Virus record (IMG/VR): IMGVR_UViG_3300014050_000064
Coordinates: 1-38,721 of that record
Reading direction: 5' to 3' (one strand)
Source of the DNA: a virus
Length of the DNA: 38,721 bases
The position numbers and the translations under genes are program-made. This document shows positions 3,560-9,649 of this stretch, piece after piece; position 1 is the first letter of the stretch, and each line of letters starts with the position of its first letter. The notes under the pieces are model-generated. The model saw only the letters and a program-made list of their open reading frames with translations. It searched no databases and had not been told where the DNA came from.

Positions 3560-4472
3560 TCAAAACCTCCAAGCACTTAGCTTTAATATTCACAAGCTCC
3601 GCGTAGTAATTTGCTTTATTAGCTTTTAAATATTCCAGATCTTCAGCGGCCGCACCTTTCCAATAATTCTCAACACCTTTTGCAGCTACGAGACTTGGAA
3701 GCATTCCGCTAACTCTTTTAAAAGCTTGCTCTGCAACTTCATCGTTATTTGTAACAATTTCACCTTCAAACATTTCAATTTGAGCTTCTGGCTCTTGGTT
3801 CTGAATCATTTCGAGCGTTTCCTCGATATGATCTGACACTACGCTGGCTTTGAGATCAGAGACATTAAAAGATTTTTCGATTGCTGCTGGCGGAATGTGG
3901 GCATTGGCAGTTTTTGATTTTGGAGTAACATCAACAATTGCCTCTTTGATTCTCTCGCCTTCATCAGGATCATAAATTCCGCCCAAGCCAAAAGCATATC
4001 TAGCAGCTTGAATAAGAGCTTTATGACGCAACATTCTACGCGGCCATTTTTTCCAAGCTGGGCTTGATTCAACATTACATTCTTCAAGATATTCAGTTGC
4101 ACAAATTGGCCTTGATCTATCCTTTCTGTAAATTCTGCACTCAATTGAGATTAATTTTCCATTTTCAACAACATCATTAAATTCGACTCCGTCCATTTCT
4201 GGGCGTCTATTAATAATTGTTGACCAACCATCGACTGGAACTATTGGAATAACTCTGCCGCCTTTAGCAAAAGCGTAAATCTCTTTTGTAAGCGGGTTTA
4301 AATCATATTCTTTGGCAACCGAAAGAAACGCTACAAATTCCTCATTTTTTACATTTCCAGCCATTACAGTTTCTTTAATAACAGCTTCAAAAGCTGCTCT
4401 TTCCATGCCGTATTTACCAGCCATAAAATCTATGACTGATTTTTTAGTTTCCGTTGCTAATTCTTTACTCAT
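3549..4472 (-). CDS. bet: Single-strand annealing protein, Red-beta (Bet) type
   Basis: A 307-residue phage recombinase of the RecT/Red-beta superfamily. Key segments are EFVAFLSVAKEYDLNPLTKEIYAF, the RVIPIVPVDGWSTIINRRPEMDG-type block, the ARYAFGLGGIYDPDEGERI block, and an acidic linker. The first ~200 residues are the annealing core. The last ~60 residues (FKRVSGMLPSLVAAKGVENYW onward) form a separate helical tail that may contact a host SSB or exonuclease; this is inference. GGAG precedes the ATG. It pairs with the RecE-like exonuclease downstream and serves phage recombination and circularisation of terminally redundant DNA. Confidence 0.92.
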   Translation of the reverse strand: MSKELATETKKSVIDFMAGKYGMERAAFEAVIKETVMAGNVKNEEFVAFLSVAKEYDLNPLTKEIYAFAKGGRVIPIVPVDGWSTIINRRPEMDGVEFNDVVENGKLISIECRIYRKDRSRPICATEYLEECNVESSPAWKKWPRRMLRHKALIQAARYAFGLGGIYDPDEGERIKEAIVDVTPKSKTANAHIPPAAIEKSFNVSDLKASVVSDHIEETLEMIQNQEPEAQIEMFEGEIVTNNDEVAEQAFKRVSGMLPSLVAAKGVENYWKGAAAEDLEYLKANKANYYAELVNIKAKCLEVLNAK

Positions 4473-4480
4473 TTTTTCTC

Positions 4481-4711
4481 CTACTTTTTATTAAAGTTTA
4501 CAAATTTTTGAATAACTCCGTAAAGTTCCCAAAATTCCTTATCTACAATTTGCCCATTCTCGAACTTATAAACGATTGAGAAAAACTTGTTGTGAAGTTT
4601 ATCTCTAACTTTTTCAGCTACTTCATTATAGCCGAATTGTCTTGAATATTTCTCTTTGAAGTAGATCCAAAGATTTTCAAAGAAGGTGTGATTTAGTTTT
4701 GTTTCTTGCAT
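4481..4711 (-). CDS. Hypothetical small protein upstream of bet
   Basis: A 76-residue, lysine- and aromatic-rich soluble protein (FFENLWIYFKEKYSRQFGYNE) with predicted helices and no membrane segment or signal. It starts at an ATG and ends nine bases before the bet start, so it is probably co-transcribed. No family is recognised. Confidence 0.65.
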   Translation of the reverse strand: MQETKLNHTFFENLWIYFKEKYSRQFGYNEVAEKVRDKLHNKFFSIVYKFENGQIVDKEFWELYGVIQKFVNFNKK

Positions 4712-4728
4712 AATTGTTTGATGTTAAA

Positions 4729-4977
4729 TTAATAACCAAGTTGTTTCAAAACTTCTTTAATTGCGCTCTTAGCTTCTTCTTTAGCTAGTTGCTCATCTGC
4801 TTGTTTATACACTTTACAATAAAAAGAACAATCATCGTAACCATCTAATCTTTCCTCAACTAAATAACATTTATTGTTAAGATAGTTTTCTATTAAATCT
4901 TCAAGAACTAAACTGATTGTATTAGAAAGAGAATCTTTTGTTGATTCGATCTTTTCTTCTGAAAATTCTATGGTCAT
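4729..4977 (-). CDS. Hypothetical small acidic protein, first gene of the recombination operon
   Basis: An 82-residue protein (MTIEFSEEKIESTKDSL...), acidic at the N-terminus, with two cysteines in a YDDCSFYCKVYKQ segment and a helical C-terminal half ending AIKEVLKQLGY. No family is recognised. It lies just downstream of a 114-bp AT-rich intergenic stretch that probably contains its promoter. Confidence 0.65.
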   Translation of the reverse strand: MTIEFSEEKIESTKDSLSNTISLVLEDLIENYLNNKCYLVEERLDGYDDCSFYCKVYKQADEQLAKEEAKSAIKEVLKQLGY

Positions 4978-5091
4978 AATTTGTTTGATTTGTTGAATTT
5001 ATTAACTTTAAAACTAATATTTTCTTACTTATTTAATTAAGTAAATAAGAACTTAAGAACTTAAGATTAATTAATCAAGCATTAATTTCAA
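4978..5091. promoter_or_regulatory. AT-rich repeat-containing intergenic region
   Basis: This gap separates the par operon from the recombination operon. It holds an imperfect inverted repeat at 5021-5050 (arms TTCTTACTTATTTAA and TTAAGTAAATAAGAA, 13 of 15 pairs plus one G-U) followed directly by two tandem GAACTTAA units and an ATTAATTAAT tract. It could be the operon promoter/operator or a partition site (parS), because it abuts the last gene of the par cluster. Low complexity means part of the symmetry could be chance. Confidence 0.4.
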
Positions 5092-5442
5092 TTATTTTTT
5101 ATGTTCAAAAATTCCAATTTTTTCAATATCCTTTTCGATACCTTTCAAAATATATTCTGCGGCTAATTTTTGCTTATCCTTTCCAAATTTTTTAGCAATA
5201 ACTGTTAAATTAAAATCATCATCTAGTTCTAAGTCAGCTTTAATCCCAATAGTAGCTGGTTTTAGATTATATTTACTCATTGCTTCCATTTTTTCTTTAA
5301 CAGTTACAGAAGCCTCAGCCTTTTTTGATTTTGCTAACTCTCGAACAGGTTCTTCATTTATAATAGTAGAAGAAGTTTCCTCTTGCTTTGCTTCTTCGAT
5401 TTTTGCCGAAAGATCTCTTAATTTAATATTTGGTCTAGTCAT
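5092..5442 (-). CDS. Small protein downstream of ParA, candidate ParB-type partner
   Basis: A 116-residue charged protein. The N-terminal MTRPNIKLRDLSAKIEEAK resembles the short basic/helical tails with which centromere-binding proteins touch ParA; the middle is glutamate/lysine-rich; the C-terminal ~65 residues are a compact domain with DLELDDDFNLTVIAKKFGKDKQKLAAEYIL. It overlaps the end of parA by eight bases. In type Ib partition loci the gene after parA normally encodes the DNA-binding adaptor, so this is the best ParB candidate, but no ParB/RHH motif is unmistakable. Confidence 0.6.
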   Translation of the reverse strand: MTRPNIKLRDLSAKIEEAKQEETSSTIINEEPVRELAKSKKAEASVTVKEKMEAMSKYNLKPATIGIKADLELDDDFNLTVIAKKFGKDKQKLAAEYILKGIEKDIEKIGIFEHKK

Positions 5443-6660: not shown

Positions 6661-6674
6661 AATTTCTTAATTTA

Positions 6675-6694
6675 TTAAGTTAATAATAACTTAA
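6675..6694. promoter_or_regulatory. Palindromic operator of the par operon
   Basis: TTAAGTTA-ATAA-TAACTTAA is a perfect 8-bp inverted repeat with a 4-bp centre, lying at the expected transcription start just downstream of the -10 element of the par promoter. Its half-site contains AAGTTA, also seen repeatedly in the switch region at 13337-13482. Its location fits autorepression by a partition protein. Confidence 0.6.
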
Positions 6695-6695
6695 C

Positions 6696-6724
6696 TTATT
6701 AAGCTCAAGAATTTTTTAAGTCAA
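6696..6724 (-). promoter_or_regulatory. Leftward promoter of the par operon
   Basis: On the minus strand TTGACT (6724-6719) is followed after exactly 17 bp by TAATAA (6701-6696). The -35 box matches the sigma-70 consensus at five of six positions; the -10 box is weaker. The operator palindrome 6675-6694 covers the start site. Confidence 0.5.
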
Positions 6725-6834
6725 CAATTTATTTTCTCATCAACCATCTTTTTAAAGTTATAGCAAGTTTAGCCGAGTATAGCAGAAATCATGTATACTT
6801 TTTTTGAAATTCTATAAATGAGGCGAGGATCATG

Positions 6835-6858
6835 TATAGAAAAGGGCGGTTTTCTATA
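6835..6858. repeat. 9-bp perfect inverted repeat with GGGCGG loop
   Basis: TATAGAAAA-GGGCGG-TTTTCTATA is a perfect hairpin in otherwise unstructured AT-rich DNA. On the minus strand it lies 19 bases downstream of the tRNA-like element, with CCGCCC in the loop. It shares the string CGCCCTTT with the anticodon-arm region of that element. There is no terminator-like T tract after it on either strand. Confidence 0.6.
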
Positions 6859-6876
6859 TATGACAGAAGATAGGAT

Positions 6877-6944
6877 TGTCAGGTGCACGATTCGACCGTA
6901 CCATTTCCCTTGAAAGGGCGAGATTACCTCTTCTCTAACCTGAC
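6877..6944 (-). ncRNA. tRNA-like element lacking an anticodon loop
   Basis: The minus strand folds as a cloverleaf of 68 nt. Acceptor stem GTCAGGT/ACCTGAC (7 bp, discriminator A), linker TA, D stem GAGA/TCTC with loop AGAGGTAA (keeps A14 and the GG pair), one G, then a 12-nt arm CCCTTTCAAGGG, variable loop AAATG, T stem GTACG/CGTGC (5 pairs, one G-U) with loop GTCGAAT (canonical TTCGAAT except position 54). A normal anticodon arm is 17 nt; here the stem halves CCCTT/AAGGG are complete and only two bases separate them. No CCA is encoded. A TTGACT box lies about 30 bases upstream. It cannot decode a codon. It could be a decayed tRNA, a decoy or a regulatory/replication RNA. Confidence 0.65.
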
Positions 6945-6984
6945 ATTTAAAAATCAAATTACTCAAAAACAAAAAGTCAAATTT

Positions 6985-7025
6985 AAAATGTTTCAAAATG
7001 TTTGTAATTTGTTCGTAAAATGTTT
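6985..7025. repeat. Iteron-like AAAATGTTT direct repeats
   Basis: AAAATGTTT occurs three times at 6985-6993, 6995-7003 and 7017-7025. The starts are 10 and 22 bp apart, about one and two helical turns, which would place bound protein on one face of the DNA. It lies in the non-coding region between the par operon and the rightward small genes, not far from the replication protein gene. Confidence 0.5.
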
Positions 7026-7078
7026 ATAAAACGCTGAACCAATCAATAAAATCAAGGTTTGATTTTTTATTTGCATTA

Positions 7079-7110
7079 ATATGTTCAGTGTATGCATGTG
7101 TTGAACATAT
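7079..7110. promoter_or_regulatory. Bipartite inverted repeat upstream of the rightward small genes
   Basis: ATATGTTCA (7079-7087) and TGAACATAT (7102-7110) are perfect inverted 9-mers 14 bp apart, with a centred ATGCAT palindrome between them. The layout is that of an operator for a dimeric or tetrameric DNA-binding protein and sits 53 bp before the first rightward start codon. Confidence 0.5.
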
Positions 7111-7162
7111 ATTAAATATATTTTTGGGCCCAATTTTTTAACAATAACTAAAAGTCAACCTC

Positions 7163-7956: not shown

Positions 7957-8924
7957 TTTATTTCTATCATTACATTAATTTGTTCCATCAATTCTTTATA
8001 CTGAATAGCTATATCATAATCTTGTAAAGGAATTTGAATTTTCCAAGAATTAGCAGTTTTAATTAATGGTGATAAAGCGAAAAGTTGCGCCCCTGGAAGC
8101 GTTCCAATGAGAAACTTTATTTTAGTCCTAATTGATGATTCTTCTTCAAAAGAATTATATCTACCAACTTTTGATTCAGGGTTAGATTTAATAAATTTAG
8201 GCCACTCTTTTTTAGTAAATTTTTGCGCCCATGCTGGGAAAGCAGCATTAAAATCTTTTGGTGCTTCGTTTTTATTTATCCAATCTACATATTTGCCAAT
8301 CAACCATTCGTAATCATATCCCATATCTTTTATAATTTGGACGGATCCAGGTACTAAATGAAAAATTACTTCTTCAACCGACCAATCGTTTACTTTTTCA
8401 GAAAAAGACCCCGTACCCGTATCTGGTTTTTTATTTGGTTGCTCTATTTGGGTAGGTATCTGTTTATATTTGTCATTTCCCACATCTCCATTTGTATCTT
8501 TTGACAAATCCATTTTATCTTTTTCACAAATCGAATTGTTATTTTCGCCAGATGCATTTGTGGAATTTGCCAAATCATCAGGATCTAGGGGTAAAGGCTC
8601 ATCTTTTGGCTTTTCTCTCAAAAATTTATTTTCATCGGTAAAAGCATACCAACAAGTTCGATCGTGAGGATTAGAATTATAATTTCCTTTAATTAAAACT
8701 TTTTGATCAACCAAACTATCAATCAATCTTCTAATTTGATTTGGAGTCCAGAAACGAAATAATTTTGGAAATGCATCTAATTTATTGTAAGTCCATGTCC
8801 GACCATCGTGAAAATGTTTTCCGTTGGCTTTATTTTTTCTGATCCAAAATCTAAAATTATAAATCAGAATAGCCTCTCGATCTCCAAATTCTAAAGCTTC
8901 GTCTTCTTCAAAGTGATATGCCAT
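7953..8924 (-). CDS. Replication initiation / replisome-organiser protein
   Basis: A 323-residue protein. Residues ~1-110 form a winged-helix DNA-binding domain of the type found in phage replication organisers: REAILIYNFRFWIRKNKANG, HDGRTWTYNKLDAFPKLF, FWTPNQIRRLIDSLVDQKVL, and TCWYAFTDE. A low-complexity linker (about 115-175, rich in N, D, K) leads to a C-terminal helical region that may contact the host helicase loader or DnaB. No polymerase, helicase or primase gene is seen elsewhere, so replication would rely on the host recruited by this protein. The linker is also where such phages often place their origin. It is coupled with the winged-helix-like gene upstream. Confidence 0.82.
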   Translation of the reverse strand: MAYHFEEDEALEFGDREAILIYNFRFWIRKNKANGKHFHDGRTWTYNKLDAFPKLFRFWTPNQIRRLIDSLVDQKVLIKGNYNSNPHDRTCWYAFTDENKFLREKPKDEPLPLDPDDLANSTNASGENNNSICEKDKMDLSKDTNGDVGNDKYKQIPTQIEQPNKKPDTGTGSFSEKVNDWSVEEVIFHLVPGSVQIIKDMGYDYEWLIGKYVDWINKNEAPKDFNAAFPAWAQKFTKKEWPKFIKSNPESKVGRYNSFEEESSIRTKIKFLIGTLPGAQLFALSPLIKTANSWKIQIPLQDYDIAIQYKELMEQINVMIEIK

Positions 8925-9258: not shown

Positions 9259-9390
9259 TATTCTTCAAGCTTTTTTCCTGCTTTAATACTATCACTTAAA
9301 TATTGTGCATATTTCTCATAAAATTTCTTTTCGTCAGGAAAATAATTTTTAATAATTCCAAGTTTTACATTTCTAAAATTTCTTTTCCAT
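9259..9390 (-). pseudogene. Orphan C-terminal reading-frame remnant
   Basis: An open frame of about 40 codons with no ATG, GTG or TTG start encodes [23 protein letters not shown]-type sequence and ends AGKKLEE-stop. The protein looks natural (amphipathic, charged) and overlaps the last codons of the TrpRS-like fragment in another frame. Adding one A in the GGAAAAGAAA run near 9385 would join them. It may be the tail of a broken gene or a chimeric join; I cannot assign the family. Confidence 0.4.
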
Positions 9391-9649
9391 GATTACTTTG
9401 AAAAAAAATATTATCGTATTGTATCCCTAAATGTAGCAAAGAGTTAAAGAAAATAGAAAGGTCAGATTTTTTTTGGTCAATAAACTTGCACCCTTCCTCA
9501 GTGGTCATTGCGTGCAAATCCATAATCCCAAACTTACATTCATAGTCGGAATTTTCCTGTAATTTTTTCCATTGTTTAATTGCACCAAGATAATTTCCCA
9601 AGTGTAAATTTCCTGTCGGTTGAATTCCCGAAACCACAATCTTTTTCAT
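9365..9649 (-). CDS. Tryptophanyl-tRNA synthetase N-terminal fragment
   Basis: A 94-residue protein that is clearly the start of a class I tryptophanyl-tRNA synthetase: [23 protein letters not shown] contains the HIGH-like motif (HLGNYLG), and [12 protein letters not shown] matches the next conserved strand. Full enzymes are about 330 residues; this stops near residue 94 before the KMSKS loop and anticodon-binding region, so it cannot charge tRNA alone. It has a good AAGGA ribosome site and an intact frame, so the short protein may be made. It lies between the rep genes and a glycosyltransferase-like gene. It could be a truncated captured host gene or a functional mini-domain. Confidence 0.8.

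Follow-up and report, generated by a model that had tools for sequence, protein, structure and literature searches.

The usual explanations for phage-borne tRNAs are codon supply and the replacement of cleaved tRNAs. Some of them are known to counter tRNA-cutting defences, i.e. tRNA-Tyr acts against retron-Eco7 and tRNA-Lys against PrrC, and the rescue from retron-Eco7 is lost when the anticodon of the phage tRNA is changed (PMC11555353). The element described here shares with canonical phage tRNAs the acceptor, D and T arms, a similar length and the fact of being encoded by a phage, but it has no anticodon loop and cannot stand in for a cleaved tRNA in translation. It was found in a viral stretch of 38.7 kb that was analysed as a whole and is hereafter called the window.

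The nearest architectural analogues are mascRNA and menRNA of the vertebrate MALAT1 and NEAT1 transcripts, in which a compact loop takes the place of the anticodon loop and which are recognized by RNase P and RNase Z and are not aminoacylated (PMC11693755). The likeness lies in a cloverleaf whose anticodon-equivalent arm is a stem with a compact loop, with no conserved anticodon loop. These RNAs are, however, eukaryotic, are cut from a long non-coding RNA, lack eight linker residues and have a small D arm, whereas T8, A9, G26, the GG of the D loop and a variable loop of 5 nt are all retained in the phage element. tmRNA, with its degenerate D arm and a long insert holding a coding frame, also combines acceptor and T arms without an anticodon; the D arm of the window element is complete and its insert is a 12-nt hairpin.

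Virus-encoded tRNA mimicry is likewise seen in the 3′ tRNA-like structures of plant viruses, which differ in belonging to RNA viruses, in lying at the 3′ end of the genomic RNA, in being aminoacylated and in other connections of the fold (PMC4810235). RNA anti-CRISPRs (Racrs) are solitary phage mimics of a host RNA as well, allowing at most an analogy of mechanism, as what they mimic is CRISPR repeats and not tRNA (PMC10651486). Cleavage outside the anticodon is reported for the defence Septu, which is stated to cut the variable loop of tRNA-Tyr (PMC13096335).

A cloverleaf without an anticodon loop

Read base by base, the minus strand from 6944 to 6877 gives GTCAGGT-TA-GAGA-AGAGGTAA-TCTC-G-CCCTTTCAAGGG-AAATG-GTACG-GTCGAAT-CGTGC-ACCTGAC-A (Table 1). 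With the anticodon stem taken as 5 bp around a 2-nt loop TC, all 21 stem pairs are formed, one of them a U-G in the T stem, just as an earlier note on this DNA had described the stems. The central claim of that note, i.e. a cloverleaf whose anticodon loop is missing and whose anticodon arm has 12 instead of 17 nt, holds both by direct reading and by a covariance model. T8 and A9 join the acceptor stem to the D stem, G26 follows the D stem, the D loop reads A14-G15-A-G18-G19-T-A-A21, and U-1 is able to pair with A73, which would extend the acceptor stem to 8 bp. Compared with the consensus GCTC/GAGC, the D stem differs at three pairs, each of them a paired change. The minimum free energy of the fold is −24.5 kcal/mol (z = −3.5), and in it the RNA hairpin of the anticodon arm closes as 4 bp with a UUCA loop.

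The statement that every tRNA landmark is present was nearly right, the exceptions being T54 and Y48: G stands at position 54, normally T, and the 5-nt variable loop AAATG ends in G48, normally a pyrimidine. The R11-Y24 pair and the lack of an encoded CCA are further deviations. In tRNAs T54 is near-invariant, and an R11-Y24 pair in the D stem is rare among elongators. Similarly, of the claim that exactly five loop bases are absent, the 12-nt arm stands, while the absence as such is not a fact, as the arm can alternatively be aligned so that a 2-bp stem carries CTTTCAA, which resembles the UUC anticodon loop of a tRNA-Glu. An origin from tRNA-Glu was rejected as less parsimonious, since both sides of the stem would have to be shortened by deletion and only 2 bp would be left. 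Loss of five anticodon-loop bases is thus one parsimonious history.

The earlier note had proposed both a tRNA finder and a relaxed model. ARAGORN does not call the element and reported no tRNA and no tmRNA in the 38.7-kb window, and the Rfam tRNA model (RF00005) gave no match on the local stretch even at E = 10. A covariance model built from 20 different tRNAs with the five central loop bases removed, none of them from the window and all drawn from the fetched loci, mostly of alphaproteobacterial genomes, did find it, matching 6944-6877 over its full length with 37.1 bits (E = 2.4e-9); the runner-up in the window scored 9.0 bits. A strict scanner, which demanded perfect acceptor, D and T stems together with T8, A14, GG, A21 and the T-loop core and ignored the length of the anticodon arm, returned 6877-6944 as the sole site in the window and no site in 12 Mb of composition-matched first-order Markov sequence. 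Based on the covariance-model score and this strict scan, chance is excluded and the tRNA origin of the cloverleaf is secure.

As in functional tRNAs, the element has a 7-bp acceptor stem, a 4-bp D stem, a 5-bp T stem, U8, A14, G18G19 and A21; it lacks the 17-nt arm with a 7-nt loop, the series T54-T55-C56-R57-A58 with Y48, and calls by tRNA finders. Stems broken by substitutions, as in a pseudogene, are not seen (21 of 21 pairs formed), nor is a tag-peptide frame between the halves, as in tmRNA, there being 12 nt between base 26 and the variable loop. The element cannot decode; with the anticodon gone, it can neither supply codons nor replace a cut tRNA.

Table 1. Positions of the cloverleaf, its arms and neighbouring features in the window, and of related elements in other viral contigs (L numbers)
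Feature	Position	Strand	Remarks
Whole tRNA-like cloverleaf without decoding loop, G1 to A73, 68 nt	6877..6944	-	Direct reading; covariance model; MFE fold
Acceptor stem, 5′ strand GTCAGGT	6938..6944	-	7/7 paired with 6878-6884
D arm GAGA-AGAGGTAA-TCTC, 4-bp stem	6920..6935	-	A14, G18G19 and A21, but R11-Y24 pair
Shortened anticodon arm CCCTTTCAAGGG (CCCTT TC AAGGG)	6907..6918	-	12 nt versus the usual 17; folds CCCU[UUCA]AGGG
T arm GTACG-GTCGAAT-CGTGC, 5-bp stem	6885..6901	-	G replaces T54
Acceptor stem, 3′ strand ACCTGAC	6878..6884	-	Discriminator A73 = 6877; CCA not encoded; direct reading and covariance model
Par operon: ORF of 118 aa, small ORF of 73 aa, ParA of 222 aa	5435..6660	-	Cloverleaf strand
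Inverted repeats between cloverleaf and par operon	6661..6713		Probable par operator
Inverted repeat TCATGTATAGAAAA..TTTTCTATATATGA shortly 3′ of the cloverleaf	6830..6863		Third arm 6810-6821; TTCTATA-type; operator-like or 3′ hairpin
Sigma-70-type promoter candidate TTGACT, 16 nt, TTTGAT	6953..6980	-	8 nt upstream of G1; by eye
Direct repeats AAAATGTTT, iteron-like	6984..7030		On the other side of the cloverleaf
F1, example	L093:1365-1583	-	
F1, example	L107:3070-3287	+	
F2	L102:3311-5388	+	
F2	L078:3375-3764	+	
F3	L274:1445-1674	-	Large-phage contigs, up to 411 kb
F3	L275:4612-4841	-	As above
F3	L279:10725-10953	-	As above
F3	L284		As above

Genomic surroundings and search for relatives

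The window encodes a terminase, a portal protein, a major head protein, a RecT/Bet-like annealing protein, an exonuclease, a replication initiator and ParA, a protein set that suggests a temperate phage equipped with a plasmid-like partition module. The cloverleaf is solitary, outside any tRNA array, and the first start codon of the par operon lies 216 nt downstream on the same strand, in agreement with its reported location beside the par operon and away from other tRNAs. The promoter candidate listed in Table 1 would start transcription near G1; a site of this kind is weak evidence in AT-rich DNA, and it fails the stricter −10 rule of the promoter scan.

Several further features of the window were observed. 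Between the iteron-like repeats and a plus-strand ORF there is a near-perfect palindrome, ATATGTTCAGTGTATGCATGTGTTGAACATAT (7079-7112), possibly an origin or a regulator site. The minus strand at 9365-9649, 2.4 kb from the cloverleaf, encodes the N-terminal 94 aa of a truncated tryptophanyl-tRNA synthetase (trpS); the best matches of this fragment among 385 alphaproteobacterial genomes fall largely into one small order with genomes of about 1 Mb, a possible hint at the host. Two adjoining minus-strand ORFs at 847-2581 encode strongly repetitive proteins (GIEAGDGIKAG-type and NSSVVARE-type) and are open in several frames.

Neither exact patterns derived from the element, which gave no match in the viral contigs, nor BLAST searches of phages and plasmids with the locus, in which nothing spanned the whole cloverleaf, revealed a relative. 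A weak match to MW202828 was rejected, as it covers the downstream repeats only, lies there inside a coding gene and comes without a tRNA-like structure. ParA has relatives on two contigs (61 % and 51 % identity), both without a cloverleaf counterpart at the corresponding place, and one of these par relatives, L002, carries an ordinary, intact tRNA-Gln elsewhere. In the 385 alphaproteobacterial genomes ParA found one distant match (29 % identity), and the portal and terminase searches yielded no close relative. A search for the parent tRNA gave short chance matches only by BLAST in 289 alphaproteobacterial genomes and nothing of similar sequence among 52 fetched tRNAs. Taken together, patterns, BLAST and neighbour genes found no homologue in the collections searched, the 289 genomes and the phage and plasmid collections giving partial coverage.

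Short-armed tRNA-like elements in other phages

Viral contigs were searched for consensus D and T arms that are spaced 3 to 7 bases too closely. The pattern TAGCTCAGNNGGTAGAGC-N19-23-GGTTCGANTCC matched 66 stretches and a variant with GGTTAGAGC matched 17, together 68 distinct elements; as both patterns fix the D and T arms, covariation of the D stem is invisible in this set and elements with unusual D arms, such as that of the window, would be missed. The 68 elements are a mixture, and many of them, often in tRNA arrays and with broken acceptor stems, look like pseudogenes. ARAGORN labels many as 'tRNA-???'.

Others form perfect cloverleaves in which a short loop closes an anticodon stem of 5 bp, i.e. 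CTTGA[UUCG]TCAAG in L101 and L131, CTAAG[GAAA]CTTAG in L095, TTGGC[ACAC]GCCAA in L078 and relatives, GTCTG[TAAA]CAGAT in L102 and L112, TTGCA[GCAA]TGCAA in L274 and L275, and AGGGA[CTAC]TCCCT in L106. Stems of 5 bp or more occur together with loops of no more than 4 nt in 14 elements, and six of these are closed by a GNRA or UUCG loop (GAAA and GCAA twice each, GGAA and UUCG once), or 4 of 12 when the F3 family described below is counted once, against an arithmetic expectation of less than 5 % for random tetraloops. Had these loops arisen by deletion within anticodon loops, mostly Y-U-..-A-A remnants would be expected. The raw count of short-armed elements was rejected as proof of function: deletions of 3-4 nt were simulated in 77 distinct viral control tRNAs, all of normal length and selected for a good acceptor stem, and about 25 % of the products still had a perfect stem of 5 bp or more.

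Two contigs are worth describing separately. The UUCG-capped tRNA-like element of L101 (8980-9137) has TATAAT just upstream and six T straight after the acceptor stem, like a self-contained small RNA gene, and a second, partial copy with a GAAA cap lies 1 kb away (8024-8100). The 127-kb contig L133 carries several tRNA-like elements in a row on the minus strand (3705-5226), three of which have 120-125 nt and share ACAGCAA in a large insert that replaces the anticodon arm.

Three sequence families were distinguished. F1, with eight members (L088, L092, L093, L107, L115, L119, L125 and L143), is an RNA of about 210 nt consisting of an outer stem, a hairpin with a GUUCCUAGG loop, an anticodon-less tRNA-like domain and a 3′ hairpin. 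The GUUCCUAGG loop is near-invariant and contains the palindrome CCUAGG, and its hairpin occurs in all members but L088. The anticodon arm of the tRNA-like domain has 14-15 nt. Over 22 pairs, 95.5 % of the cells are paired and 14 pairs have changed on both sides, compared with a mean of 6.4 after shuffling, none of 500 shuffles reaching 14; the covariation score is 0.606 versus 0.18 for shuffled and at most 0.140 for slid alignments. Within the anticodon stem three of the four pairs show double changes, and the loop is always short. Beyond the tRNA hit, no Rfam 15 family matched F1 at the gathering threshold.

An F1-like outer frame with a different inner domain was found in Enterobacteria phage IME10, Klebsiella phage KO-TP1 and Erwinia phage vB_EhrS_59, and a related frame also in Pseudomonas phage Marin, three of these four lying near genes of the early-left operon. 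Both IME10 and KO-TP1 have the frame just past the repressor gene. That of KO-TP1 precedes kil, gam and recT, and that of vB_EhrS_59 stands a short way ahead of the N antiterminator. As related frames lie beside repressor and early-left genes, F1 is most plausibly a domain of a leader RNA in lambdoid-type phages.

F2 comprises up to four tRNA-like elements per phage, placed between small genes, whose paralogues carry different hairpins (10-28 nt) as anticodon arm. F3 could be compared in three sequences, a small sample next to the eight of F1: between L274 and L275 the flanks differ at 5 of 164 positions (about 97 % identical) and the acceptor strands at 9 of 14, the acceptor stem showing three compensatory double changes with pair 85/150 unpaired in L275, while the GCAA-capped anticodon arm has no difference in 20 positions. 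Stems that covary around a loop that stays short, the pattern that the earlier note had asked about, are therefore present in comparable phage elements, namely F1 and F3. Loop identity, the covariation of F1 and the compensatory changes of F3 argue for selection on those elements, which suggests that some of the short-armed shapes recurring in unrelated phages are functional RNAs rather than broken genes.

With an acceptor/D/T cloverleaf, a paired anticodon stem and a loop of at most 6 nt, the window element fits the short-armed class. Its flanks have neither the GUUCCUAGG hairpin of F1 nor the outer stems of F3, and it does not have the AACGRTR acceptor of F2, which places it outside the three families.

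Retained structure or decay

With slightly better than even confidence, we favour the window element being a structured, non-decoding tRNA-like RNA over its being a recent pseudogene. After neutral decay in which 2 of about 14 near-invariant unpaired bases have changed, about 4 to 6 of the 21 pairs should be broken and none is; a simple calculation puts the probability of no broken pair at about 0.005-0.08, the value varying with the way in which the changed bases are counted. The argument that retained stems speak against simple decay is thus upheld, and the intact pairing favours a retained structure; it is not decisive, since the base changes could predate the loss of the loop. The covariance-model match and the D stem, whose three departures from the consensus are all paired, support the same reading, and so does, for the class, what was seen in the loops, in F1 and F3 and in the F2 paralogues with their differing hairpins. 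Several findings weigh against a structured RNA. The tRNA elbow would be weakened by G54 and G48, CCA and a terminator are lacking, and the promoter-like site is weak. In addition, the D arm does not resemble that of the class members, which were themselves selected by a consensus D arm, the trpS fragment is a broken translation gene in the same phage, and no homologue was found in the collections searched.

The main rival is a recent pseudogene, i.e. a phage tRNA that has lost five anticodon-loop bases and whose further decay is still to come, which we regard as a real possibility of clearly less than even weight. G54, G48 and the missing CCA fit decay, a truncated trpS lies close by, degraded copies are numerous in phage tRNA arrays, the acceptor stem is broken in many of the short-armed hits, the par relative L002 has an ordinary tRNA-Gln, and the simulated 3-4 nt deletions mean that a perfect stem alone is no proof of function. 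The full set of pairs despite changed invariant bases speaks against it, and after simulated 5-nt deletions the stem still has at least 5 bp in only 4 % and at least 4 bp in 32 % of cases. Furthermore, no similar parent tRNA was seen in the 289 alphaproteobacterial genomes or the 52 fetched tRNAs, and the element stands alone, with no tRNA array around it.

A cis-acting structural or processing element, in which the tRNA shape marks a cut by RNase P or RNase Z in a par or replication leader transcript, comparable to mitochondrial tRNA punctuation and MALAT1/mascRNA, seems unlikely. The cloverleaf does precede the par operon on their common strand, and short-armed elements of other phages are found 16-26 nt before start codons of small genes (several F2 elements of L078 and L102) or in an early-left leader (F1); the 216-nt gap to par, however, holds operator-like repeats, so that par probably has its own promoter, and no leader structure is common to the window and F1 or F3. 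Very improbable is a fossil attachment site, or a cloverleaf working as DNA in replication. Its location between iteron-like repeats and the par operon would suit either, and integrases often use tRNA genes; but the window proteins tested include no integrase, the whole tRNA body is present whereas an attP carries a tRNA fragment, and the hallmarks T8, A14, GG and TCGA would be needless in a DNA cruciform. Among the other roles put forward in the earlier note, no support was found for a copy-control RNA, and a decoy for anticodon-cutting enzymes is unlikely, as these would find no anticodon loop to cleave. A decoy role towards factors recognizing the elbow or the acceptor is possible.

If the element is indeed a structured RNA, the locus would encode a small, stable RNA of about 70 nt without decoding function, presumably transcribed from the adjoining promoter-like site. 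Its acceptor, D and T arms would provide the tRNA shape and thereby recognition by RNase P, RNase Z and other binders of elbow or acceptor, and the RNA may be processed like a tRNA. It could then act as a decoy or competitor for host proteins that recognize the tRNA body, or as an RNA-processing signal. With the anticodon absent, candidate partners would be readers of elbow and acceptor, such as RNase P, RNase Z, tRNA-modifying enzymes, EF-Tu and defence nucleases that cut outside the anticodon loop.

More broadly, it is tempting to speculate, at a little under even confidence, that phages of many kinds encode a code-blind class of cloverleaves, the window element included, with a short hairpin for an anticodon arm and stems under selection, which would act on host machinery that recognizes the tRNA body. 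Its members would occur either alone, in leader RNAs (F1, lambdoid-type phages) or in larger structures (F3, large phages). No description of such a class was found in the open-access literature searched. Codon supply and the replacement of cleaved tRNAs both fail as explanations for an anticodon-less cloverleaf; if such RNAs are made, they point to factors, of the host or of a defence system, whose recognition is confined to the acceptor and the elbow. Since standard tRNA annotation misses these elements or leaves them untyped, the class may be widespread and unreported.
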